From NCBI GenBank assembly GCA_024239075.1, contig JANBVI010000064.1:310001-374000 (forward strand): a stretch of 64,000 nt of DNA, in the 5' to 3' direction. Position 1 is the first letter of the stretch; each line of letters opens with the position of its first letter. The position numbers and the translations under genes are program-made. Positions 1,856 through 62,609 of the stretch are shown here, one piece after another. This DNA comes from Fischerella sp. CENA71 (lineage in GTDB: Bacteria; Cyanobacteriota; Cyanobacteriia; Cyanobacteriales; Nostocaceae). The notes under the pieces are model-generated. The model had not been told where the DNA came from, searched no databases, and worked only from the letters and a program-made list of their open reading frames with translations.

Positions 1856-2416
1856 TTACTGAGAAGTACAAATAACTTGTCGCATTTTACGCATGTTTGC
1901 AGGCAATTCAAAATTCATTGCTTGTTGAATAAAAATAGACGGAACAGGGATGTTAGGAGTAGCTTTGACAGTATAGGTTAGCAAAGTGCCATTGGCATAA
2001 TCTTGTAAGTGTAACTCGGCGCTAAAGTCGTGAAAAGTACCTTTTTCTAGTCGAAATTGCACTCTCTGTCCCAATTCTTCTATGACACTTAAGTAAATTT
2101 CCACATGGGCTGTGAAAAACAAGAAGGCTTTTTGTGCCGCTTGATACAGACACTTGACCTCACCTCGTTTTTGCAAAACCTCACTTTTAGTTATATCGGG
2201 AAAATACTGTACCCAACGAGGGTAATCTGTGATTTGTGAAAAAACTTGCGATCGCAATAGGGGTAAATACATCCAAGCAGTGACACAACCACCCCATGAC
2301 GTATGTGATCCCGTTTCTGTCAATATTTCACCCTGTATGATCTTCTGTTGCTTGTCTTGACTCCAAGTCATTGGTAAGCCTTTGGTAAATGATTCTGAAA
2401 TATAAGATGCAGACAT
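1856..2416 (-). CDS. SRPBCC (START-like) family protein
   Basis: 186 residues. The pattern is that of the cyanobacterial polyketide cyclase/dehydrase-like SRPBCC fold: an early GGCVTAWMYLP segment, YPRWVQYFPDI (the typical 'WxxYFPxI' block around residue 75), several amphipathic beta strands, and an amphipathic C-terminal helix (IFIQQAMNFELPANMRKM). Such proteins form a hydrophobic cavity for a lipid or other apolar ligand; the ligand here is unknown. The start is the ATG at 2416, preceded by GAGGAG 13 nt upstream; a longer frame from TTG at 2446 is less likely. First gene of a probable two-gene unit with the DUF924 gene. Confidence 0.8.
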   Translation of the reverse strand: MSASYISESFTKGLPMTWSQDKQQKIIQGEILTETGSHTSWGGCVTAWMYLPLLRSQVFSQITDYPRWVQYFPDITKSEVLQKRGEVKCLYQAAQKAFLFFTAHVEIYLSVIEELGQRVQFRLEKGTFHDFSAELHLQDYANGTLLTYTVKATPNIPVPSIFIQQAMNFELPANMRKMRQVICTSQ

Positions 2417-2939
2417 AATGTTTAACTCACTCCTCAATAAAGTCAATCGTTTTTGGAAAAAATTAAAGGTGAGCTAATGCTAGCTTGCAGTTTCCTTTTT
2501 CCTGAACTCGACTTTTACACAAATTCTGGTTTAAAGTTGTAATCATCTCAATTGATTGAGTATATTTGACCAATTCTAGTTCCAAATCAATATATATAAT
2601 TTCCGGAAATACTTTGTATCTGGGTTGTTATGTCAAATTTTCATCAATTTTAAGTGATCCTAATCACAAATTCTTTAAGTAAAAGTACTTACAATGCTCA
2701 AAGTCTGCCATAGATTTGCCTAAAGTGTTGCTTGTTCATGGATAAAATGACCAAAATGAAGATGAAGGCTGAAGTCTGAAGGATGTCCCTAACGGGAAAC
2801 CAATAACTATGGTAGCTGCGTAATGATTTAGTACAAATCGCTACTAAATATCTAAGTGCAGCATCAGCTGAAAAATGGAAAATTTCACACTTCATACTTC
2901 ATAATTAATAATTCAGTTGTTGAGTTAATAGTTATTCAT
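2417..2939. other. Non-coding stretch, divergent promoter region
   Basis: About 520 bases between the minus-strand SRPBCC gene and the plus-strand small membrane protein. It must carry promoters in both directions. I see AT-rich sequence and a copy of a 'TTCATACTTCATAATTAAT' type dispersed word near 2890-2910. A 65-codon frame on the minus strand (2698-2895) has no protein-like character and was rejected. Confidence 0.45.
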
Positions 2940-3140
2940 ATGAGTCAATCTTCTTCTAAATTAAATCGCAGATTAACCCAGCTTGTTGCTGTAATTCTTG
3001 GTATTACGATTGCCATTTGGGTATTAAGGGGATTTGGTGTACTGACTTTTATTCCTGGAGGAATTATTTTACTCTTGTTAATGGTAGCGATCGCAATCGG
3101 TGTTCTCAATCACTTGCAAAAAACCTGGTGGCGTTTCTAA
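2940..3140 (+). CDS. Small two-helix membrane protein, conserved-hypothetical type
   Basis: 66 residues starting at ATG 2940 (MSQSSSKLNRRL). Two hydrophobic segments (about residues 14-32 and 37-56) are joined by a short GFGVLTFIPGG turn, and the protein ends in KTWWRF, so it is a membrane hairpin with positive N- and C-terminal flanks. I do not recognise a named family. It stops 23 bp before the giant histidine kinase on the same strand, so the two are probably co-transcribed; whether it works with the kinase is unknown. Confidence 0.65.
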   Translation: MSQSSSKLNRRLTQLVAVILGITIAIWVLRGFGVLTFIPGGIILLLLMVAIAIGVLNHLQKTWWRF

Positions 3141-3163
3141 ACCACGTCAATTAAAAACCAATT

Positions 3164-6100
3164 ATGAGTAGCAGCAATTCACAACAAAAAAGCCAAGGAA
3201 ACATTCTCGTAGTTGATGACTGCTGGGAACATTTACAAGCTTTATCTGCTACTTTGTCCCAATACGGCTATGCTGTCCGGAGTTTAATTACAGGTTCGAT
3301 AGTATTAGAAGTAGCAAAATTAGCTTTACCGGATCTGATTTTGCTTGATATAAAAATGCCAGATATTGATGGATATGAAGTTTGTCAACAACTCAAAGCA
3401 GATAAGACTACTTGCCATATTCCGGTAATTTTTATTAGTGTCTATAATGATATTTTTGACAAGGTTAAAGCTTTTAAAATTGGCGCTGTCGATTATATTA
3501 CTAAACCCTTTCAAGCAGAAGAAGTTTTAGTACGTGTAGAAAATCAAATTACTATCCAAAAACTGCAACAGCAACTTAAACAACAAAATGAACAGTTGCT
3601 GTTAGAAATGCAAGAATGTCAACGCATTGAAGCAGCTCGACAATTGCGTGAACAATATCTCACAGCACTTTTAGAAGTGCAGCATCGGTTATTGTCGTTT
3701 GATGGCAGCGACAAATGCTATCAGGATATTATGCCAATTCTTGGGACTGCTTCCAAGGCGAGTCGCGTTTACGTATTTGAAAATCATCATGCAGATGATG
3801 GTAACTTGCTCATGAGTCAACGGGCTGAGTGGTGTAGTGAAGGCATTCAGCCGGAAATTGATAACCATATTTTGCAAAACTTATCATATCAAGAATATTT
3901 TCCTCGCTGGGCTACTTTATTGCCACAGGGCAAAATTATTTCTGGTATCGTCGCAGAATTACCCTCATCAGAACGAGCAATTTTAGAACCACAAGGTATA
4001 CTTTCAATTTTGATTTTGCCAATTATTGCTAAAGGAGAATTTTTAGGTTTTATTGGCTTTGATAACTGTGTAGAATCACGCCCTTGGGAAACTTCTGAAG
4101 TCGCTTTTTTGCAAGCAGCCGCAGGAGCAATTTCTATAGCCTACGAACGATATAAATCAGATTTAGAATTACAAAAACAATTAGAACGTAGTCATCTTCT
4201 CAGAAAAATTATAGAAAAAATCCGTTCGGAATTAGACACACAAATTATTATCAAAACAGCTATTAAACAAATAGGTGAGGCTTTCGGTGTCAGTCGTACA
4301 CTCATTCATACTTACGTAGACTTGCCAACTCCTCAAATCCCTATATTAGAAGAATTTTTGGCTCCTGAGTGTACCTCCCTCAGCCATTACAATATACCTG
4401 TAAATGGTAATCCCCACACCCAACAATTATTAGCTCAAGATCAAGCTATCGCAGCTAATAATGTTTATACTCACCCACTGTTAGAAAACGCTCAAGAATT
4501 ATGTCGGGAATATAATATTAAATCTATACTCGCAGTCCGCACTTCTTATAATGGGCAAGCAAATGGAATGGTTTGTTTACATCAGTGCGATCGCTATCGC
4601 AACTGGAGTCTAGAAGAAATTGAACTACTAGAATCAATTGCTGCTCAATTGGGAATTGCCATCGCCCAAGCCAAACTACTAGAACAGGAAAAACAAGCCC
4701 GGATAGAATTAGAGCAAGAAATTCGCGATCGCCTCAACGCCGAAGCAGCTTTGCGACATTCCCAAGCCAAGCTAGCTTCAGCTTTTCGCTCATCTCCCGA
4801 TCCCATAGCCCTGACCACTTTTCCAGAAGTCCGCTACATTGAAGTTAACGATAGCTTTTGTAGATTTTTTGGCTATTCTCGTTCTCAGATAATTGATCGC
4901 AACTATCAAGAATTAAATATCTGGGCGAATCAAGAAGAATTTGCCATGCTTACCCAAGTTCTGCGCCATACAAAAGCAATTGACAATCATGAGGTTGAAT
5001 TCCGTACTGCGAGCGGAGAACTTAAGACGACACTCTTTAGTGCTGAACTAATTGAAATCGACGGACAACAATATTTACTTGGTACAGCTCATGATATTAC
5101 AGAGCGCAAGCAAGCTGAAAATGAAAGCCGTTTGCTGTTGCTGACAACCCAAGCTATCAGTCGCGCTGTAGATGTAGACAATGCTTTAGCCCTTGTTTTG
5201 CGCTTAATCTGTACAACTATTGATTGGAATTTTGGTGAGGCTTGGATACCTACTGAAAACGACACCGCTTTGGAATATAGGTTAGGTTGGTATGGACGCC
5301 ACAATAACTTAGACGAATTTTGCCAGTACAGCCAAGTGATCAGACTTGAAAAAGGGATGAGACTACTGAGGCGAGTTTGGCGCCACCAAAAACCAGAATG
5401 GATAGAAGATATTTCTGAAGTGACAGAGTCATCTGTTGTAGGATTCTCTATAGAAGGAGACGCAACCTATTGGGAATCTACGCGATCGCAAATCGGATTA
5501 AAAGCTGGTTTTGTTGTTCCAATATTAGCTGGTAGTCAAGTAGTCGCTGTCTTGACTTTTTTTAAAAGTAGCTCCCATGCTTTGGATCGCCGTTTGCTCT
5601 ATTTGGTGGGTGCTGTTGCAGCTCAATTAGGGGCGCTTATTCAACGTAAACAGGTAGAAGCAGCCCATTGTCAAAGCGAAGAACGTCTACAACTGGCACT
5701 AGCAGGAAGCGATTTAGGATTATGGGATTGGAATATCAAATCTGGGAAAGTCTACCGCGACTGGCGATGGAAGAAAATGTTGGGATACGAACCAGACGAC
5801 ATTTCAGATGATTCCCGTGCTTTTGCTCAACTGCTGCATCCAGATGATGTAGAGCCAATTAAATTCAAACTAGATGCCTATTTGCGGGGTGAGAGTCCCG
5901 CCTACGAAGTAGAATTTCGCCTGCGTGCCAAATCCGGTGAGTGGAAATGGATACAGTCTCGCGCTCAGGTATTTGAGCGTGACGAATCGGGCGAACCACT
6001 ACGGATGACAGGTACACACAAAGACATCACCGAACGTAAAACCCTAGAAAGGGAATTAGCCTTACGGGAAGCCCGCCTCAATGCTTTTTTCTCCTGCGCT

Positions 6101-9067
6101 CCTGTAGGGTTAGCGATATTAGATGATCAATTGCGATTTGTGCAGATCAACGAACTGCTAGCAAATATTAATGGGTTGTGCCAAAGCGAGCATATAGGCA
6201 AGAGTGTTTGGGAAATAGTCCCCGAAGTAGCGCCTGTTGTAGCACCAATCCACGAACAAGTCCTGCAAACTGCGAAACCCATTCTCAACATAGAAGTGAG
6301 CGCACCATTGCCTTCGCAGCCAGGTATTATACGGCATTTTTTGACTTCTCACTTCCCCATTTTTGGAGAAGACAGTCGCCCTCGTGGTGTGGGTACAGTT
6401 GTAGTAGAAATCACAGATCGTAAACACACTGAACTAGCTTTGCAAGAGAGTCAACGTCGTTATCAAACTTTAGCAGAAGCCTCGCCTGTAGGCATTTTCC
6501 ATACTGATCATGAGGGCAAGTACCTTTATGTAAATCAGCGTTTCAGCGATATCACTGGGCTTGCTGCCAGGGCTGATTTGGATAAGCGTTGGCATGAAAT
6601 TATTCATTTTGATGATCGCGATCGCGTCTTTGCCCAATGGCAAGCAATGATATCAGCAAGAAAGTCTTTTTATTCAGAGTATCGCTTCGTACATCCCAAC
6701 GGTAGGGTAATTTGGGTCATAGGTCAAGCCTTACCAGAATTTGGAGATGATGGTGAATTTAAAGGCTACATTGGCACAGTCACAGATATCACTGAACTTA
6801 AACTTGCCGAAGATGCCTTGCGTGAAAGTGCAGACAGAGAAAAAGCCATCACCCAAGTGATTCAGAGAATGCGCCAGACATTAGATTTGGCAACAATTTT
6901 TACTGCTACTACTCAAGAATTGCGGCAAGTACTGAACTGCGATCGCGTCGTGGTGTATCGCTTCAACTCTGACTGGAGTGGGGAATTTGTCGCCGAGTCA
7001 GTCGGCAGTGGTTGGGTATCGCTCATCGAACAACACCAAGATGAACCCGTTATCATCGAAAATACTCTCCAAAACGAACGCTGTACAGTCAGAATCCTCA
7101 GTAGTGGAGATAACCAAGTAATTGATACTTATCTCCAACAAACCCAAGGCGGTGTATACACCAAAGGTGCAAGTTTCCTATGTGTACCAGATATTTATAC
7201 GGCTGGTTTTGATCCTTGTTACATCAATCTCTTAGAACGCTTTCAAGTCAGAGCCTACATAACAGTTCCGATCTTTTGTGGTAATCAACTTTGGGGACTA
7301 CTAGCTAGTTTTCAAAATTCTACTTCCCGGCAGTGGAAGCAAGGAGAAATTAACATTGTTGTGCAAATTGGCAATCAATTGGGAGTTGCTTTGCAGCAAG
7401 CAGAGTTACTAGCACAGACTCAACAGCAATCAAGCGCACTCCAAAAAGCTGTGATCGCTGCTGATGCTGCAAACCTTGCCAAAAGTGAATTTCTGGCCAA
7501 CATGAGCCATGAATTACGCACCCCACTGAATGCAATCCTTGGCTTTACTCAAGTCATGAGTCGTGACAGGACTCTCTCTAGTGAAAACAAACAAAACCTG
7601 GCAATTATCAATCGTGCTGGCGAACACCTGCTCAATTTAATTAACGACATTCTGGAAATGTCTAAAATCGAAGCCGGTAGAACCACATTAACTTTGTCTA
7701 GCTTCGATTTAATTTATCTGTTGGACAATCTGCAAGAAATGTTGCACATCCGTGCTGTAGCCAAAGGTTTAGAACTGGTATTTGAATATGCACCTGAAAT
7801 TCCCAGATATGTAAAAACCGACTCTAGTAAACTGCGACAAGTTTTACTCAATGTCTTGGGAAATGCCATTAAATTTACTGAAACTGGTAGTGTAAAGCTA
7901 CGGGTTTACCTTGGAGATGAAGAGAAAGTAAAATCAGATTCTTCCCAACCACACAAACAGGAAAACCCTAACCCTCTATCAACCCATCACAACACACTCC
8001 TTCTCTGCTTTGAAGTCATTGACACCGGGCCTGGTATTTTCCCAGAAGAAATTGACTTACTTTTTCAAGCTTTTGCACAAACTGAAACAGGTAGAAAATC
8101 ACAGCAGGGAACTGGGTTAGGTTTAGCAATTAGCCGCAAGTACGTACAGCTGATGGGAGGTGAGATCAACGTCAGTAGTACTGTAGGGGTAGGAAGTGTA
8201 TTTTCCTTTTATATCCCGATTGCGATCGCTTCTGTTGACGAAATTCAAACCACTGCTTCTGTTTCTCAGCAAGTGATTGGTTTAGCACCTGGTGAACCGG
8301 AATACCGTATTTTGGTAGTTGATGACGCTCATGATAGTCGTTTGCTAGTAGTACAATTACTAACATCTATTGGCTTTTCAGTCAGAGAAGCTACAAATGG
8401 TAGAGAAGCCATCTCTGTTTGGGAATCCTGGAAACCTAATCTCATTTTCATGGATATGCGGATGCCAATCATGGATGGTTACGAAGCCACTAGGGAGATT
8501 AAAGGGAGAGAAAGAGATGCGGTGCAGGGACACGGGGACATGGGAGAGACGGGGAATATAAATCAAACAATCTCCGCGTCTTCCTCCCTCTCCGTATCAC
8601 CGCTTCTTCCTGTCACTACGTCTTCTTCGCATACTGTCATTATCGCCCTCACTGCTAATGCTTTCGAGGAACAACGACAGGCGATGATCTCAGCTGGGTG
8701 TGATGATTTTATTAATAAACCCTTCCGTGAAGCATTATTACTAGAAAAACTTGCTCAATATCTGGGGGTGAAATATCTTTTTCATGAAGAGAATCAAGAA
8801 GAAATATCACAAAACCAAACAAACACAGAGGCGATTTTAAATTCCATTGATATGGTTGCTCTATTGTCAGAAATGCCAAGTGAGTGGTTGACACAGGTGC
8901 ATTATGCCGCAGCGCAATGCAGTGATGACTTGATTATAGAGTTAGTTAAGCAAATTCCTTCTGGCAAATCTTTGTTGAGTAATTTCCTCACCGATTTAGC
9001 TGAAAACTTTCGGTTTGAGAAAATTCTCGAATTAGTTGACTTAGTAATAGTTAATGGACAAAGTTGA
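3164..9067 (+). CDS. Multi-sensor hybrid histidine kinase (REC-GAF2-PAS-GAF-PAS3-GAF-HisKA-HATPase-REC)
   Basis: A 1967-residue cytoplasmic hybrid sensor kinase. Order: receiver (about 13-135, D18/D19 and phosphoacceptor D62), GAF (166-334), GAF (346-510), PAS (530-650), GAF (653-833), PAS/PAC (836-956), PAS (963-1088), PAS (1090-1213), phytochrome-like GAF (1226-1414), HisKA with H1449 in MSHELRTPLN, HATPase with N box near 1557, DTGPG at 1620 and GTGLGL near 1649, and a second receiver (D1720/D1721, phosphoacceptor D1764). No transmembrane segment is seen. The last GAF has C1352 in DPCYINLL at the place where cyanobacteriochromes bind bilin, but followed by Tyr instead of His. The second receiver carries a low-complexity 42-residue insertion (1781-1822) encoded by a G/C-rich repeat. 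Signal and target are unknown. Confidence 0.95.
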   Translation: MSSSNSQQKSQGNILVVDDCWEHLQALSATLSQYGYAVRSLITGSIVLEVAKLALPDLILLDIKMPDIDGYEVCQQLKADKTTCHIPVIFISVYNDIFDKVKAFKIGAVDYITKPFQAEEVLVRVENQITIQKLQQQLKQQNEQLLLEMQECQRIEAARQLREQYLTALLEVQHRLLSFDGSDKCYQDIMPILGTASKASRVYVFENHHADDGNLLMSQRAEWCSEGIQPEIDNHILQNLSYQEYFPRWATLLPQGKIISGIVAELPSSERAILEPQGILSILILPIIAKGEFLGFIGFDNCVESRPWETSEVAFLQAAAGAISIAYERYKSDLELQKQLERSHLLRKIIEKIRSELDTQIIIKTAIKQIGEAFGVSRTLIHTYVDLPTPQIPILEEFLAPECTSLSHYNIPVNGNPHTQQLLAQDQAIAANNVYTHPLLENAQELCREYNIKSILAVRTSYNGQANGMVCLHQCDRYRNWSLEEIELLESIAAQLGIAIAQAKLLEQEKQARIELEQEIRDRLNAEAALRHSQAKLASAFRSSPDPIALTTFPEVRYIEVNDSFCRFFGYSRSQIIDRNYQELNIWANQEEFAMLTQVLRHTKAIDNHEVEFRTASGELKTTLFSAELIEIDGQQYLLGTAHDITERKQAENESRLLLLTTQAISRAVDVDNALALVLRLICTTIDWNFGEAWIPTENDTALEYRLGWYGRHNNLDEFCQYSQVIRLEKGMRLLRRVWRHQKPEWIEDISEVTESSVVGFSIEGDATYWESTRSQIGLKAGFVVPILAGSQVVAVLTFFKSSSHALDRRLLYLVGAVAAQLGALIQRKQVEAAHCQSEERLQLALAGSDLGLWDWNIKSGKVYRDWRWKKMLGYEPDDISDDSRAFAQLLHPDDVEPIKFKLDAYLRGESPAYEVEFRLRAKSGEWKWIQSRAQVFERDESGEPLRMTGTHKDITERKTLERELALREARLNAFFSCAPVGLAILDDQLRFVQINELLANINGLCQSEHIGKSVWEIVPEVAPVVAPIHEQVLQTAKPILNIEVSAPLPSQPGIIRHFLTSHFPIFGEDSRPRGVGTVVVEITDRKHTELALQESQRRYQTLAEASPVGIFHTDHEGKYLYVNQRFSDITGLAARADLDKRWHEIIHFDDRDRVFAQWQAMISARKSFYSEYRFVHPNGRVIWVIGQALPEFGDDGEFKGYIGTVTDITELKLAEDALRESADREKAITQVIQRMRQTLDLATIFTATTQELRQVLNCDRVVVYRFNSDWSGEFVAESVGSGWVSLIEQHQDEPVIIENTLQNERCTVRILSSGDNQVIDTYLQQTQGGVYTKGASFLCVPDIYTAGFDPCYINLLERFQVRAYITVPIFCGNQLWGLLASFQNSTSRQWKQGEINIVVQIGNQLGVALQQAELLAQTQQQSSALQKAVIAADAANLAKSEFLANMSHELRTPLNAILGFTQVMSRDRTLSSENKQNLAIINRAGEHLLNLINDILEMSKIEAGRTTLTLSSFDLIYLLDNLQEMLHIRAVAKGLELVFEYAPEIPRYVKTDSSKLRQVLLNVLGNAIKFTETGSVKLRVYLGDEEKVKSDSSQPHKQENPNPLSTHHNTLLLCFEVIDTGPGIFPEEIDLLFQAFAQTETGRKSQQGTGLGLAISRKYVQLMGGEINVSSTVGVGSVFSFYIPIAIASVDEIQTTASVSQQVIGLAPGEPEYRILVVDDAHDSRLLVVQLLTSIGFSVREATNGREAISVWESWKPNLIFMDMRMPIMDGYEATREIKGRERDAVQGHGDMGETGNINQTISASSSLSVSPLLPVTTSSSHTVIIALTANAFEEQRQAMISAGCDDFINKPFREALLLEKLAQYLGVKYLFHEENQEEISQNQTNTEAILNSIDMVALLSEMPSEWLTQVHYAAAQCSDDLIIELVKQIPSGKSLLSNFLTDLAENFRFEKILELVDLVIVNGQS
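8504..8629 (+). repeat. G-rich/C-rich repeat inserted in frame in the kinase C-terminal receiver domain
   Basis: 126 bases (42 codons) between the conserved receiver blocks ending YEATREIK and beginning HTVIIALTANA. The left half is G-rich (GGGACACGGGGACATGGGAG, GAGACGGGGAA) and the right half C-rich (TCTCCGCGTCTTCCTCCCTC), the same words seen in trpD (18131-18229) and in intergenic copies at 15815, 19095 and 57957. The length is a multiple of three and the frame stays open. Confidence 0.8.
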
Positions 9068-16305: not shown

Positions 16306-17394
16306 ATGCTTCAGTCTTTGTTATCCCAAGTCACGCTAATATTTCTTTCCACCACACTCGCGATTTTTGCTGTTGCTTGTCGGAAGGACAAACAGGCTGT
16401 TGTGGATCATCAGCAACAACAACCAGAAGCTGTAGAAAAGAGTCCGATCGCTTCTGGTGAGAACACACCATTACCGACAATCACTCCACAACCACAGCAA
16501 TACCAAGCTTCTGACATGCCATCCGATACTTTTGAGTTAGGCTTGGATAAAGCAGCTAGTGCTGATACTATCAGTCAATCTGCTCAATCAACAGAAGATT
16601 GGAATTTAGTAGTTAGTCAGTATGAAGATGCGATCGCGTTGATGAAACAAGTAGATCGGCAAAGTACTTTCTTTCCCAGCGCTCAAGACAAGATCATCCA
16701 ATATCAACGCCGGATTAAATACGCTCGACAGCAAGTCTTCTCTCGCAAGGAACCACCACCAAAAGTAACAACACAAGTACAACAACAACCTTCCAGGATA
16801 GTGCTTGTTGTTCCTCAACCTTCTGCTAAACCAGCAATTCTCCAAAAAACTCAACAACCAACAACCAACAACCGACAAGTAACAAGCAATACACAACAAC
16901 AGGTATTTGTAGCACCCACTACACAGCAGCGCAATGAACCTGTGGTGTTTGTCGCTCCGATTAAACGACGAGTCGGGGGGACACCAATCATTGATGTTGC
17001 TTTTAATGGCAATCAACAATTTGAGATGATTTTAGATACGGGAGCAAGTGGTACAGTCATCACCCAAGGTATGGCAAATGCCTTGGGGATAGTACCTTTT
17101 GGGAGAGCGAAAGCAAATACAGCCAGTGCAAAAGCGGTAGAATTTCCCGTTGGTTATGTAAATTCTATGGAAGTTGGCGGAGTGAGTGTCAAAAAAATTC
17201 CGGTGGCGATCGCTGGAACAGAATTAGAAACAGGACTTTTGGGACACGATTTTTTTGGTGACTACGAGATCACCATTAAGCGTGATGTGATAGAATTTCG
17301 TCCACCATCCTACTCTGGGCAACTCAATCCTGTAGGAACTCAACTAACTGTTCCAACTTCGTCCAAGCCACACCACTCTGAAGAATATCCCTAG
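16306..17394 (+). CDS. Lipoprotein with retropepsin-like aspartyl protease domain
   Basis: 362 residues from ATG 16306. Residues 1-25 form a signal ending AVAC (C25), a likely lipobox. Residues 30-215 are low complexity, rich in Gln, Pro and Thr, with a short helical stretch (about 85-145). The C-terminal domain (about 225-340) is a single-lobe clan AA protease: [12 protein letters not shown], the active-site D244-T-G-A-S-G, and the hydrophobic-Gly 'flap/psi-loop' [14 protein letters not shown]. Such proteins dimerise to be active. The target is unknown. The last 71 bp overlap the 3' end of trpD on the other strand. Confidence 0.85.
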
Positions 17395-18463
17395 CCAATT
17401 GTATACCTTGAGCGTGATCCAATAATGGGATTGCTCCACCCACTTGCAGCGCTAACGCAGTGTTTAATGCTACTACATCCTGCTGTGCTTGTGTCCCTTT
17501 ACCTTGTAGCACCGCTTTTAAGATATCCGCATTTTCTTGAATGTCCCCACCCACGAGTGCTGTAATGGGAGCAGGAGTTAACCCTAGTTCTTGTGGATTT
17601 ACTGTAGTTAATGTTACTTCATTTGCCGATAAGACAGCTAAATCAGTAATATCACCTAAACCAGCTTCATCCAATTTTTCTCGTCCGTGTAGGGCGATCG
17701 CTTTTTGTGTACCCAGTAGCTGTAAGGCTTGAGCAATTGTCGTTAATAATTTGGGATCAAATACCCCAATCACTTGCCCTGTGGGACGTAAAGGATTCAC
17801 CAAAGGCCCAAGTAAATTAAATACTGTTCGCACCTTGAGACTCCGTCGCAACGCAGCAACTGACTTGAGGGCTGGATGCCAACCAGCAGCAAACAAAAAG
17901 GTTATTCCCACTTCTTTGACTGCTGCTTCTACCTTCTCACTAGAACAGTTCAGGTTTATCCCCAAAGCCTCTAATACATCCGCACTACCAACACGACTGG
18001 ATGCCGAACGATTCCCATGTTTTGCAACAGATATACCACTCGCAGCAGCCACAAAAGCAACAGCTGTAGAGATATTAAATGTTGATGCTCCATCTCCTCC
18101 AGTACCGCAGGTGTCGATGAGGGGATCGGGGAGTGAAGAAGACGTAGGGACGCGGAGAATGGGAGACGCGGAGATTTGTTTCCCCGCGTCTGCGTGTCCC
18201 CGTGTCATCGTGTCCCCTTGTCCTCTAAGAGACTGAGATTGCAAGACTTCAGCCATTCCTGCTAATTCTTCAGCAGATACGCCTTTGCAATGTAGTGCAG
18301 CTAAAATTGCCCCTGATAATTCCGGGGGAATAGCCTCACTTAGCCATCCTTGCATCAATTCTGCTGCTTGAGGGCGAGATAAAGATTGGCGTTCTAGTAA
18401 TTGTTGAAGCAGATTAGACCAGATCGCAGAAGATTCTTGTCCAGGCTGCGACGAATGGTTCAT
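17324..18463 (-). CDS. trpD: Anthranilate phosphoribosyltransferase, with an extra low-complexity insert
   Basis: About 379 residues from ATG 18463 (a TTG two codons upstream is less likely). It joins anthranilate to PRPP in tryptophan synthesis. Visible: helical N-domain with a [13 protein letters not shown] helix, the pyrophosphate loop [14 protein letters not shown] (about 119-132), [21 protein letters not shown] (KHGN/SS motif), [14 protein letters not shown], and DEAGLGDIT. Family members are usually about 340-350 residues; the excess is explained by a 33-residue insertion (about 79-111) immediately before [11 protein letters not shown], encoded by a G/C-rich repeat (18131-18229). The insert falls in a loop preceding the PRPP site, so activity is probably kept. 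Convergent overlap of 71 bp with the protease gene. Confidence 0.95.
18131..18229. repeat. G-rich/C-rich palindromic repeat inserted in frame in trpD
   Basis: On the plus strand a G-rich arm (GGGACGCGGAGAATGGGAGA) is followed by TTTGTTT and a C-rich arm (CCCCGCGTCTGCGTGTCCCC). GACGCGG and CCGCGTC pair perfectly near 18174-18190. The segment is 99 bases, a multiple of three, and encodes Arg/Gly/Ser/Pro-rich residues absent from the TrpD family pattern. Confidence 0.82.
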
Positions 18464-19259
18464 AAACAAGTTTATTTAATAAAAATAAATCGCCATAAAT
18501 CAAATTAACCCGAAAGGGTTTTGAATAGTTAGCTTTGAACAAAGGATTTATTTGTTTTAATAAAATTTTTAAGTAAATATACGGTTGCAAATTTATCAAT
18601 TAGCTACAAAAATCTGATTGAAGAACAGTGAGGAAAAATTAAGTATCTTTAGATACAATTATTATATAATGATTCTATATTGTCATTCCACAGTACCAGC
18701 TATGATCTTAAATCAGTGAACAGTGAACTTGTGGAAATTATTCTTACCTCACTAAATAAACCTGATAAGTCTTAAAACAAAGATTTTTAATATTTAATTG
18801 TTAATTTTAGATGTGATGAGCTGTTGATCCCCTAATATACATTGTCCAACATTATAGGTGATTTAAAACAAGATTTAGGAACAGTTAAATTTTTACTGAT
18901 TTTTACATATAACAGAGTATTTTATTTATCTTTATATATGTCTTGGCATACGCAAACTATTTAGGGATTTTACGTAAATTTAATTAAAGCGGAGTTAAAA
19001 AATAAATGATAAGCTGCTACCCTATTACTAATTCACTTTTTGCTGCAACATTTGAACCCTCTAAAATCTGTGGTTTACAGAATTTGGAGGGATTCTTTTT
19101 TGGGATCGGGCATTGGGAAGAGACAAAAGAGAGCGGAGAGTGGGAGACGCGGTGAATCAATCAAAAATATTCGACCTGTCCCTACCTCCCCGTGTCCTCC
19201 TTGTCTCCCGTGCCTCCCGTGTCTTCAGTTCCTCATTTTTGCTAAACTAGCAAAAGCTA
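18464..19259. other. Long non-coding region with one G/C-rich repeat copy
   Basis: About 800 bases between divergently arranged trpD and the ACAD-cyclase gene. The left 600 bases are AT-rich with no convincing gene. From about 19095 to 19215 lies a repeat copy: GGGATCGGGCATTGGGAAGA, GTGGGAGACGCGGTG, a short AT-rich middle, then CCTCCCCGTGTCCTCCTTGT and CCCGTGTCTTC. Frames that cross this repeat (for example 19040-19354) are artefacts. Confidence 0.6.
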
Positions 19260-21125
19260 ATGGATTGCGATCGCCAAGTGTTGCCAGAGGAAAATCATTC
19301 TGTTTTAGAAATAGCCCATTCCTATTTGCTCAACCCAGTTGCAGCCAAAGCTAATGAAATAGACAGAGATCCAGATACACTCATGCAAGCGCTGCAAGGA
19401 CTTGGAAATTTGGGTTTGCTGGCGTTACGTATTCCCCCTGATTGGGGTGGTAAAGGAGTTAGTGAAGACACTTTTAGTAAATTTCAAGAACTCGTAGCAC
19501 GGTACTCCGGCGCTTTAGCTTTTTTGCAAACTCAACACCAAAGCGCTGCTGCAATGCTAGTTGCTAGCAGTAATTTTAGTTTGCAGCAGGAATATTTACC
19601 CCGTATAAGTAAGGGTGAAGTTTTACTCGGTATTGGTTTTTCGCAGTTGCGACGTGTAGGCGAACCACTCACAGTTGCTAAACCAGTCACAGGAGGATAT
19701 CAATTAGATGGAGTCGTACCTTGGGTGACTGGATGGGGAATATTTGACGATTTTATTATTGCTGCTACGCTTCCCGATGGTTGTGCCGTGTTTGGTGTTG
19801 TTCCTTTTCAGGAAACTTACCAAAATTCAGAAAGCAAAATCACATTTACTTCGCCAGCACAACTAGCAGCGATGACATCAACTAATACGGTGACTGCTAA
19901 TTTGAGTAGTTACTTTTTACCTGAAGAGTACGTAGTTTCAATTAAACCAGCTGGATGGATTCATGAAAACGATAAAAATAATGTCCTGCGTGCCACCTTT
20001 TTAGCTACAGGTTGCGCTTTTGCTGGTTTAGATATTATAAAATCTGCCGTAGAGACAAAATCATTGCCTGCGATCGCTCATGCTTTGACAGCTTTTCAAC
20101 AAGAATTAAACCAGTGTCGCAGCGCAATTCATCAGGCACAGAAAAATATTAATATACAACTGTCAGAAAAATTACAACTACGAGCCTGGGCAATTGATTT
20201 AGCAACACGCATTGCTCATGCAGCTGTTACCGTTTCTAGCGGTGCTGCCAATTATTTACATCATCCTGCACAAAGAGTATACCGCGAAGCACTGGTGTTT
20301 ACAGTTACTGGGCAGACTAATGCGATAATGGAGGCGACGCTGGAGAGGTTAAGTAGGAAGTGGGGAGATGGGAGAGATGGGAAAGACAATAGTTATTTGT
20401 TTTCTCAATCAAAAGTTATTCAACCAAAAACTATCACCTATTCACGAGTTATTCATCTGAGTCATGTGATAGACACCGATATTCCTCAGTGGGAAGGTGA
20501 TCCTCCGGTGGAATTTGAGACTGTTGCAGAAATCGAAAAAGACGGGTATCATCTGCGACGCTTTTCTTTAGGTGAACACAGCGCTACTCATATTAATGCC
20601 TCAAAAAGCTTTTATCATGATGGTGTTGGCATTGATCAATATCCCGCAGAATCGCTAGTTGTACCTGCGGTAGTTATTAATATTCAAGAGCAAGTAAAAA
20701 TTAACCCGGACTATATTCTCAATGTTGCTGATATTTTGGAGTGGGAAGAGCAATACGGAGAAATTACTAGTAAGAATATAGTGTTATTATACACAGGATG
20801 GCAGGAAAAGTGGTGCGATCGCACGGCTTTTATGAACCCAGATTCTCAAGGAAATATGCATTTTCCTGGTTTTAGTAGTGATGCAACTGAGTTTCTATTG
20901 CATGAGCGTGACATTGCTGGAGTTGGAATTGATACACATGGTGTAGATCCTGGGCAAGATACTACTTTTACCACCAACTGTCTAGTACTAGAGAAACCAC
21001 GTATTGTTCTAGAAAATCTTACGAATTTAGATCAGTTACCAGCCAAAGGCGTAACTTTGGTGATTGGGATTTTGAGGTTAAGAGATGGTTCAGGTTCGCC
21101 AGCTGGAGTGATGGCGCTGATTTAA
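19260..21125 (+). CDS. Acyl-CoA dehydrogenase-like / cyclase family fusion protein
   Basis: 621 residues. Residues about 10-370 read as an acyl-CoA dehydrogenase-like flavoprotein: an N-terminal helical domain (GLLALRIPPDWGGKGVS), the beta middle domain (VLLGIGFSQLRR ... TGGYQLDGVVPWVTGWGIFDDFI) and a helical C-domain (ATRIAHAAVTVSSGAANYL). Residues about 395-621 are a cyclase (kynurenine formamidase-like) domain: HLSHVIDTDIPQWEGDPPV, the metal motif variant GEHSATHINASKSF, GIDTHGVDPG. In this family the metal motif is usually HxGTHxDAP; here Gly is Ala and Asp is Asn. The linker (about 366-385, GDGRDGKDN) resembles the local G-rich repeat. Substrate unknown; the ATG at 19260 is not supported by a Shine-Dalgarno. 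Confidence 0.82.
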   Translation: MDCDRQVLPEENHSVLEIAHSYLLNPVAAKANEIDRDPDTLMQALQGLGNLGLLALRIPPDWGGKGVSEDTFSKFQELVARYSGALAFLQTQHQSAAAMLVASSNFSLQQEYLPRISKGEVLLGIGFSQLRRVGEPLTVAKPVTGGYQLDGVVPWVTGWGIFDDFIIAATLPDGCAVFGVVPFQETYQNSESKITFTSPAQLAAMTSTNTVTANLSSYFLPEEYVVSIKPAGWIHENDKNNVLRATFLATGCAFAGLDIIKSAVETKSLPAIAHALTAFQQELNQCRSAIHQAQKNINIQLSEKLQLRAWAIDLATRIAHAAVTVSSGAANYLHHPAQRVYREALVFTVTGQTNAIMEATLERLSRKWGDGRDGKDNSYLFSQSKVIQPKTITYSRVIHLSHVIDTDIPQWEGDPPVEFETVAEIEKDGYHLRRFSLGEHSATHINASKSFYHDGVGIDQYPAESLVVPAVVINIQEQVKINPDYILNVADILEWEEQYGEITSKNIVLLYTGWQEKWCDRTAFMNPDSQGNMHFPGFSSDATEFLLHERDIAGVGIDTHGVDPGQDTTFTTNCLVLEKPRIVLENLTNLDQLPAKGVTLVIGILRLRDGSGSPAGVMALI

Positions 21126-61335: not shown

Positions 61336-61806
61336 TTACCTGCGACTAGAGGTTGGCGTTTTTTGAAAAGTGGCAATCAACAAACAAACAATACCAATAT
61401 TAATAAATACATCTGCCAGATTAAAAACAGGAAAGTTAATCAGTCGAAAGTCTAGGAAATCAACAACATAACCTAAAGCAAAGCGGTCTATACCATTACC
61501 CATAGCACCACCCAATATAAAGCCATAACCCCATTGCTCCCAACGGTTTAAGTTTGGACCCAACCATGCCAAAGCTATTAGTGCTAAACTCACTGCTAAA
61601 GATAGCCAGCGTAACCACTCTACTTTTCCTGATAGCAAGCTAAAAGCTGCACCAGTATTAGTCACATATGTTAAGTGAAATATACCAGGTAACAGTGGCA
61701 ATGTTTGTTTTAAGCTAAAGGTTTGTACCACCCAGTATTTTGTGATTTGGTCTAAAAAAAAAGCGATCAAGCCAGTAATCCAGAAGAATTTATTTTTAAA
61801 ACGCAT
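61336..61806 (-). CDS. lspA: Lipoprotein signal peptidase (signal peptidase II)
   Basis: 156 residues from ATG 61806 (TTG at 61830 is less likely). Four helices and the family blocks FFLDQITKYWV, YVTNTGAAFSLLSG, GGAMGNGIDRF, VVDFLDF with catalytic D116, and FNLADVFINIG with catalytic D132. It cleaves the signal of prolipoproteins before the lipid-modified Cys; several candidate substrates are in this window (CAP protein, retropepsin protein, PstS). It may be co-transcribed with bioY upstream across an STRR-filled spacer. Confidence 0.96.
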   Translation of the reverse strand: MRFKNKFFWITGLIAFFLDQITKYWVVQTFSLKQTLPLLPGIFHLTYVTNTGAAFSLLSGKVEWLRWLSLAVSLALIALAWLGPNLNRWEQWGYGFILGGAMGNGIDRFALGYVVDFLDFRLINFPVFNLADVFINIGIVCLLIATFQKTPTSSRR

Positions 61807-61856
61807 GGCAAAATAAGTAAGTCGGCACAAATAAAGCTAATGAGTTGGGGTCGTTA

Positions 61857-62025
61857 TTTGTCATTGGTCATTGGTCATTGATAATTGGTCATTGATAATG
61901 GTTTTAAACATGTTGTTTTTTCATAACATAGTAATATTTATCCCACCGACTTACTTAGTCATTAGTCATTCGTCAAAAGCAAATAACAAACGACAAATGA
62001 CCAATGACAAATAACAAATGACTAA
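61857..62025. repeat. STRR-rich spacer between bioY and lspA
   Basis: TTTGTCATTGGTCATTGGTC-type heptamers (61857-61900) and ACGACAAATGACCAATGACA-type units (61990-62025), which reach into the bioY stop codon. The two blocks are roughly complementary in orientation. Confidence 0.8.
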
Positions 62026-62609
62026 TAAAACATTAAGTGACGTAGCACATACGCGATGACAGTGACAGCACAAACCACAGCTAGTTGTCCTGGTAGTGCA
62101 AACCAAGAGTATCTGAGGATTGCTTGCATCAGGGTCAAAGTTTCTGTGCCTTGTAACTGTAAAACATAGCTGAGAATCAAATAACTAATACCGCAGACGT
62201 GAACGGTCAACAAGCCACAAATACAACTAAATGCTAGTGCTTCCAGTCGAGGTCTGGCTTTAAAGGCAAAAAAGCCACAAATCCAAGCTCCAGGAATAAA
62301 GCCCAGTAAATAACCAAACTGTGATAGCTTAACATAGCCAAGACCACCACCACTAGCAAATACAGGTAATAAAGTTAGCCCCATCACCAAATAGGCTATT
62401 TGTGAAATGGCGCCAGCATTTTTGCCGCCTAAACATCCAACAAGTAGGACACCGCCGATTTGAAAAGTGACACCCAAGGAAAAAGTATGAATTCCGTGCT
62501 TACTCCAACTCCAAGGTAAGGTGGTAATATTTGCTTCTAAGAAGGTACCACCCATCGTTAGCAGTAAGCCAATCATAGACCATAACAACTGATTGGACGC
62601 GGCTAACAT
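62022..62609 (-). CDS. bioY: BioY-family biotin transporter (ECF S component)
   Basis: 195 residues from ATG 62609 with six hydrophobic segments. BioY pattern: SLGVTFQIGGVLLVGCLGGKNAGAISQ, AYLVMGL, FASGGGLGYVKLSQFGYLLGFIPGAWICGF with the conserved Gly-rich substrate loop, and a C-terminal LPGQLAVV. BioY binds biotin with high affinity and works alone or with EcfA/EcfT modules; none of those genes is adjacent. Upstream gene of the probable bioY-lspA unit. Confidence 0.88.
   Translation of the reverse strand: MLAASNQLLWSMIGLLLTMGGTFLEANITTLPWSWSKHGIHTFSLGVTFQIGGVLLVGCLGGKNAGAISQIAYLVMGLTLLPVFASGGGLGYVKLSQFGYLLGFIPGAWICGFFAFKARPRLEALAFSCICGLLTVHVCGISYLILSYVLQLQGTETLTLMQAILRYSWFALPGQLAVVCAVTVIAYVLRHLMFY

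Follow-up and report, generated by a model that had tools for sequence, protein, structure and literature searches.

An in-frame palindromic repeat in trpD of Fischerella is probably one copy of a genome-wide family that behaves like Rickettsia palindromic elements

We analyzed a window of 64,000 nucleotides, the whole stretch of Fischerella DNA, and collected the features connected with trpD, the gene of anthranilate phosphoribosyltransferase, in Table 1. The identity of TrpD is supported by NCBIfam model TIGR01245 (374.4 bits against a cut-off of 199.05); its best relative in the PDB is 1vqu, and the closest named organisms among the best 80 of 280 relatives are Pelatocladus (91% identity) and Westiellopsis (90%). 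A frameshifted gene or pseudogene was ruled out by the absence of a stop and by the full TrpD domain. The palindromic in-frame segment that a sequence-only reading of this DNA had reported in trpD was confirmed and proved to be one copy of a genome-wide family. The second in-frame copy claimed for the window was also recovered, in a long open reading frame (ORF) that we take, by eye, to encode a hybrid histidine kinase. A third copy is intergenic, and the ORF beyond it (19260-21125, 621 aa) resembles, by eye, a fusion of two parts, one acyl-CoA-dehydrogenase-like and one cyclase-like.

Table 1. Repeat copies, their genes and the second TrpD-like gene (window coordinates unless a contig is named)
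Feature	Position	Strand	Remarks
trpD, anthranilate phosphoribosyltransferase	17324..18463	minus	379 aa, intact, no internal stop
Repeat copy in trpD	18122-18237		profile match
TrpD linker coded by the repeat	18122..18232	minus	37 aa, starts after ...MAEVLQSQ
Inverted-repeat arms of the trpD copy	18149-18174 and 18181-18206		degenerate 8-nt units
Second copy in the window	8499-8629		in frame in ORF 3164-9067 (plus strand, 1967 aa), receiver-like part
Third copy in the window	19102-19218		intergenic, between trpD and the ORF starting at 19260
Second TrpD-like gene	G000:C45, about 61611-62423 (L293)		short linker without repeats

The two arms of the trpD copy are 73% complementary, and direct repeats inside them recur at a spacing of 16 nt, or two 8-nt units. 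A structural model of TrpD built with 37 sequences had a mean pLDDT of 80.8; residues 82-109 fell below 50, and a few other short segments were low as well. This low segment lies between a helix (64-84) and a strand (115-117), and the insert is thus predicted to be a disordered interdomain linker. The second TrpD-like protein is 71% identical to the window TrpD over residues 113-378. Because its gene, which is free of the repeat, is in the same genome, the cell might compensate for losing one TrpD, and this weakens the earlier argument that an insert in TrpD is telling because the enzyme is essential.

The linker was present at all 80 named loci, nearly all of them Nostocales by title, with varying lengths and peptides. 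Among 110 linkers, in which some genomes are represented twice, the length ranged from 10 to 70 aa with a median of 21, contrary to the claim that the length of the TrpD family is well fixed. A 7-, 8- or 9-nt period was found at the chosen threshold in 39 of the 110, and 57 of 109 had a G-rich first half and a C-rich second half. The sequence-only reading had set the added length at about 33 residues. The insert is real, and the figure changes with the reference. Outside the family, a class-level search listed seven matches spanning the linker, which were 17-23 codons shorter than the window TrpD; four of the seven belong to a single genus, and the figure would move with any other indels. In G057, the closest congener, this element is present but shorter by exactly 24 nt, which equals three octamers or 8 codons, and in the other congeners the linker differs from the window copy by +1, 0 and -32 codons.

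The trpD site holds 7-nt and 9-nt units in other genomes, and two congeners have mosaic linkers, with an octamer-like left arm and a heptamer right arm in G089 and with 9-mers and heptamers in G110. At its right end the window copy has retained a CCCCGATCCCC stretch that resembles these two linkers. None of the four congeners searched yielded the insert-free trpD orthologue that had been hoped for; all have repeat-type linkers, partly of other families, and the original insertion into trpD is therefore out of view. Judged by the occupied and mosaic linkers of the congeners, the present insert sits in a long-occupied linker and not in a protein of fixed length. The sequence-only reading had named as its counter-case an insert conserved in all related TrpD proteins with unrelated nucleotide sequence. 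That case did not arise: the relatives share the site, but its length, repeat family and peptide vary among them.

The repeat family to which the trpD copy belongs is an imperfect palindrome of about 100 bp whose arms are degenerate tandem arrays of 8-nt units. A 121-nt query from trpD gave at least 58 matches at E≤1 in its own genome (G000), with 40 of 159 first-look candidates scored. We built up a profile from the trpD copy and searched samples of the contigs of this 7.47-Mb genome. The profile matched at 22 places in 454 kb, at 68 in 1.254 Mb (the 454 kb included) and at 14 in a further 0.380 Mb, giving 82 places in 1.634 Mb and, by extrapolation, about 375 genome-wide. Median matched lengths in the three context classes were 102, 108 and 105. 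The next-best E-values, about 2e-20, belong to dispersed loci, and both strands matched at the same places. These profile matches disfavor chance or composition as the sole source of the family.

In all, 37 of the 82 copies, spread over 34 ORFs, were in frame in ORFs of at least 200 aa. The first sample (n=68) comprised 33 such copies, 23 intergenic ones and 10 overlapping an ORF end; two more, in ORFs of 84 and 104 aa, were left out of the in-frame count. The in-frame share was lower in the second sample (4/14, although frames were judged there from stop to stop, a slightly looser rule) than in the first (33/68). The peptide is alike at most in-frame sites, of the type DTGTRGHGDTEN..SASPRLRVSASS, and the TCNCCGCGTC-type motif prefers one codon phase (32, 13 and 8 in the three phases). 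Several non-genic copies begin no more than about 10 bases past a stop codon, for example C9:93344 and C27:115922.

To identify the hosts, 20 insert-bearing proteins were scanned against NCBIfam. Above the cut-off were two RecJ proteins, MutS2, CobN and BchH with two inserts each, LysA, MenE, dihydroorotase (PyrC), TrmJ, RsgA, ThiO, HrmK, Pnkp, an FAD-binding enzyme and TrpD; five of the 20 fell short, three without any match at 1e-10 and two with matches below the cut-off only. The LysA protein has 32 residues where its solved relative 2o0t has 6; its predicted structure, made with five sequences, was unusable (mean pLDDT 39.8). Outside the sample, a further in-frame copy was seen on L252 at about 2.7 kb, in a minus-strand ORF (1977-3311) that by eye is presumably a cobyrinate a,c-diamide synthase-like gene, about 1 kb from an IS200/IS605-type pair.

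If insertion were random, two of every three copies inside genes should be out of frame. We defined a split gene as same-strand open frames of at least 80 codons on each side of a copy, and none was visible among the 45 other copies by this check, which is blind to short gene remnants, while the in-frame set is itself defined by openness; the five candidates that came up all looked, on our reading of their peptides, like two different genes. For comparison at orthologous sites, we searched the congeners G004, G057, G089 and G110 for ten insert regions and extracted the linkers. This gave 54 orthologue pairs from 14 sites, 13 of them in four congeners and one in two. The length difference was a multiple of three in 54 of 54 pairs (zero in six), and all 54 linkers were open. 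These data establish a recurrent in-frame process with a frame filter, as the sequence-only reading had proposed when it spoke of recurrent insertion under selection for multiples of three.

The lengths also bear on how the arrays change. Among 20 pairs of octamer linkers, 11 differences were multiples of 24 when zeros are included; among the 14 non-zero differences, five were (1.75 expected, P 0.023) and nine were not, in a test that was chosen after the TrpD case had suggested it. The exceptions are mostly linkers with 9-mers or 7-mers, and the pair from the kinase site, differing by 18 nt, is an exception without these. The linker sequences thus give moderate support to a length change in unit steps under the frame filter.

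Flanks of up to 450 nt were 86-97% identical between congeners, and the linkers between them were often not alignable. By our own reading of rough motif counts, one or more congeners have a repeat of another family at 10 of the 14 sites. These other families are 9-mers of the type GGACAAGGA and heptamers such as CCCCGAT or GATCGGG; BchH has a GTAGAGACGCG...CGCGTCTCTAC palindrome and MenE an AATTACC array. True absence was found at two sites: the kinase site lacks the copy in G110 (102 nt less), the G004 copy there being 18 nt shorter, and the second MutS2 site lacks it in G057, G089 and G110. The second MutS2 insert (G000 C27:21955-22032) shows 111 nt identical between G000 and G004 amid flanks differing by 5-10%, suggesting a recent insertion or exchange. 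Synteny with G110 was only local, and many empty sites at once were not obtainable. From this turnover, we tentatively raise the possibility that certain enzyme loops of Nostocales are recurrent sockets in which unrelated short palindromic families swap from one sister species to the next while the frame and near-identical flanks are kept. If so, the sockets would be places of active replacement or conversion at hairpin-prone loops, with a fast but frame-limited evolution of protein length.

Could the inserts be kept for a function, for example by forming a hairpin or G-quadruplex in the mRNA and so adjusting its translation or stability? The trpD repeat folds strongly as coding-strand RNA (-48.2 kcal/mol, z -4.60, none of 200 shuffles equally stable; as plus-strand DNA, z -2.33 and 4 of 200), and the G-rich heptamers of Nostoc and Xanthomonas are discussed as quadruplex formers in the accessible part of PMC4692102. 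But the length, family and peptide at one site are not conserved between congeners, and the host genes are functionally unrelated, so that we consider such a function very unlikely.

We also scanned ORFs by composition alone. A scan for a G-rich stretch followed by a C-rich one gave 34 hits against 21 in a reversed control for G000, 7 against 4 for G110 and 6 against 7 for G033, and 9 against 2 in a G004 sample picked around insert genes. A stricter array scan picked out 8 ORFs among 918 in G000 (control 1), 7 among 205 in G110 (control 0; one of these hits resembles chance) and 2 among 207 in G033 (control 1). Its sensitivity is low, with 8 ORFs detected in G000 where the profile detects 34. 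As the scans are weak or insensitive, the evidence for a spread beyond the genus comes mainly from the TrpD linkers. The poor separation of the composition scan from its control, together with the 71 of 110 TrpD linkers that lack a 5-12-nt period at the chosen threshold, is what ordinary low-complexity linker variation would give, with the repeat family a by-product of base composition. Yet the profile matches lie at dispersed loci and on both strands, and the stricter scan does exceed its control in G000 and G110, though hardly in G033; of all the explanations weighed here, we find this one the least probable.

A single query matched at least 48 times in G000 and at least 49 times in G004, at least 7 times in G057, 8 times in G089 and 7 times in G110; for G000, G004 and G057 the scoring covered 40 first-look candidates. 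This contrast in copy number points to lineage-specific multiplication. Target-site duplications, proposed earlier as a sign of insertion, were not seen by eye at the sites compared with less-filled congeners; a MITE would have them, along with a parent transposon that has the same terminal inverted repeats. A search for a parent transposon, which consisted of PF01797 only, gave no RAYT in the genome and just two matches, each adjoining an ORF that by eye we take to be TnpB-like; this pairing assigns both Y1 transposases to the IS200/IS605 type. Mobilization by a RAYT was thus rejected for want of a candidate transposase. Since neither a duplication nor a dedicated transposase was found, we infer the copying between loci. 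The trpD-type family had no profile match in the RNase P RNA or tmRNA of G000; by eye, the RNase P RNA gene (L313, G000:C27:206740-207169, 430 nt) contains a different, A/T-richer inverted repeat of tandem units.

These observations also suit a reading with no mobile element at all, in which long-lived linkers are cradles where G-rich and C-rich arrays grow in place by slippage and hairpin-templated copying, and loci look alike because they share unit sequences. The mosaic trpD linkers of G089 and G110, with the stretch that the window copy has in common with them, would be expected from such growth, as would the 24-nt steps, the filling of the same sites in nearly all congeners and the failure to find either transposase or duplication. 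Growth in place accounts poorly, however, for whole two-arm palindromes with the same peptide at dispersed places, for the clear absences at two sites, for the unequal copy numbers of congeners and for a MutS2 insert that is identical in two genomes whose flanks have diverged. We therefore judge it an unlikely, though serious, alternative.

Taken together, these results make it probable, though far from certain, that the trpD segment is a member of a genome-wide family of short palindromes behaving like Rickettsia palindromic elements (RPEs). A putative copying process would seed copies at many places; frame-breaking copies would be lost, through the filter seen in the orthologue pairs, and in-frame copies in permissive loops would survive. 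The survivors would be read as linker peptides, their translation following from the open frame and their disorder being a prediction for TrpD only. The 8-nt tandem arms may then lengthen and shorten by slippage, as the length differences moderately suggest, and because only frame-keeping changes persist in genes, pure octamer arrays would change in steps of three units, or 24 nt. Over time an array in a loop would be overwritten or replaced by other families, which would produce the observed pattern of unrelated repeats at one site in sister species.

The spread of such repeats and their tolerance by proteins become directly testable questions in Fischerella-type genomes, and with several congeners at hand the birth, slippage and replacement of inserts can be traced at orthologous sites. 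A caution also follows: in these cyanobacteria, TrpD, RecJ, MutS2 and proteins like them contain repeat peptides specific to the lineage, which upset alignments and structure work.

The best-known protein-coding palindromes are those of Rickettsia and Wolbachia, which live inside cells and have small genomes. The general phenomenon is already known from RPE, WPE and REP precedents; in the open-access literature we recognized no report on in-frame palindromic inserts in Nostocales enzymes, and same-site turnover of repeat families and array-step length change in coding sequence were not found there. The comparisons below hold for the accessible parts of the papers cited. GTAG/CGTC-tagged REPs occur inside ORFs of several bacteria, DNA-repair genes included, and flexible linkers or loops are suggested to house them (PMC3733652); the Fischerella repeat is likewise palindromic and inside ORFs, and is set apart by the description of REPs as 20-40-bp units with a tetranucleotide tag. 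The STRRs of heterocystous cyanobacteria are short tandem units, usually of 7 nt; some of them form hairpins (PMC2670836), and in Nostoc 7120 the GGGGA(C/T)T repeats are 68% intergenic, so that about one third lie within or touch ORFs, while the 7-nt heptamers are seldom paired as inverted repeats (PMC4692102). The Fischerella family also has short tandem units, but they are 8 nt long, inverted and in frame. REPINs are hairpin-forming inverted pairs dispersed in genomes, that of Nostoc punctiforme among them (PMC3116915); the Fischerella pairs are similarly dispersed, in a genome in which, unlike the REPIN/RAYT system, no RAYT was found.

The closest likeness in behavior is to RPEs, palindromes of 105-146 bp found between genes, in frame in proteins and in RNA genes (PMC2229807, PMC10969869, as far as their accessible text goes), and to the WPE-like in-frame inserts described in the corresponding part of PMC4224334 for recombination genes of Wolbachia. 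The Fischerella repeat is also about 100 bp long, palindromic, intergenic and in frame in unrelated genes. In a comparison by description and not by sequence, it differs from both in its free-living host, its arms made of 8-nt arrays and its turnover of families at one site, and from RPEs in that the trpD-type family lacks a profile match in RNase P RNA or tmRNA. By analogy, then, the Fischerella repeat would work like RPEs, with no claim of descent from them, and would extend RPE-like behavior to ordinary enzymes of a photosynthetic lineage with large genomes.
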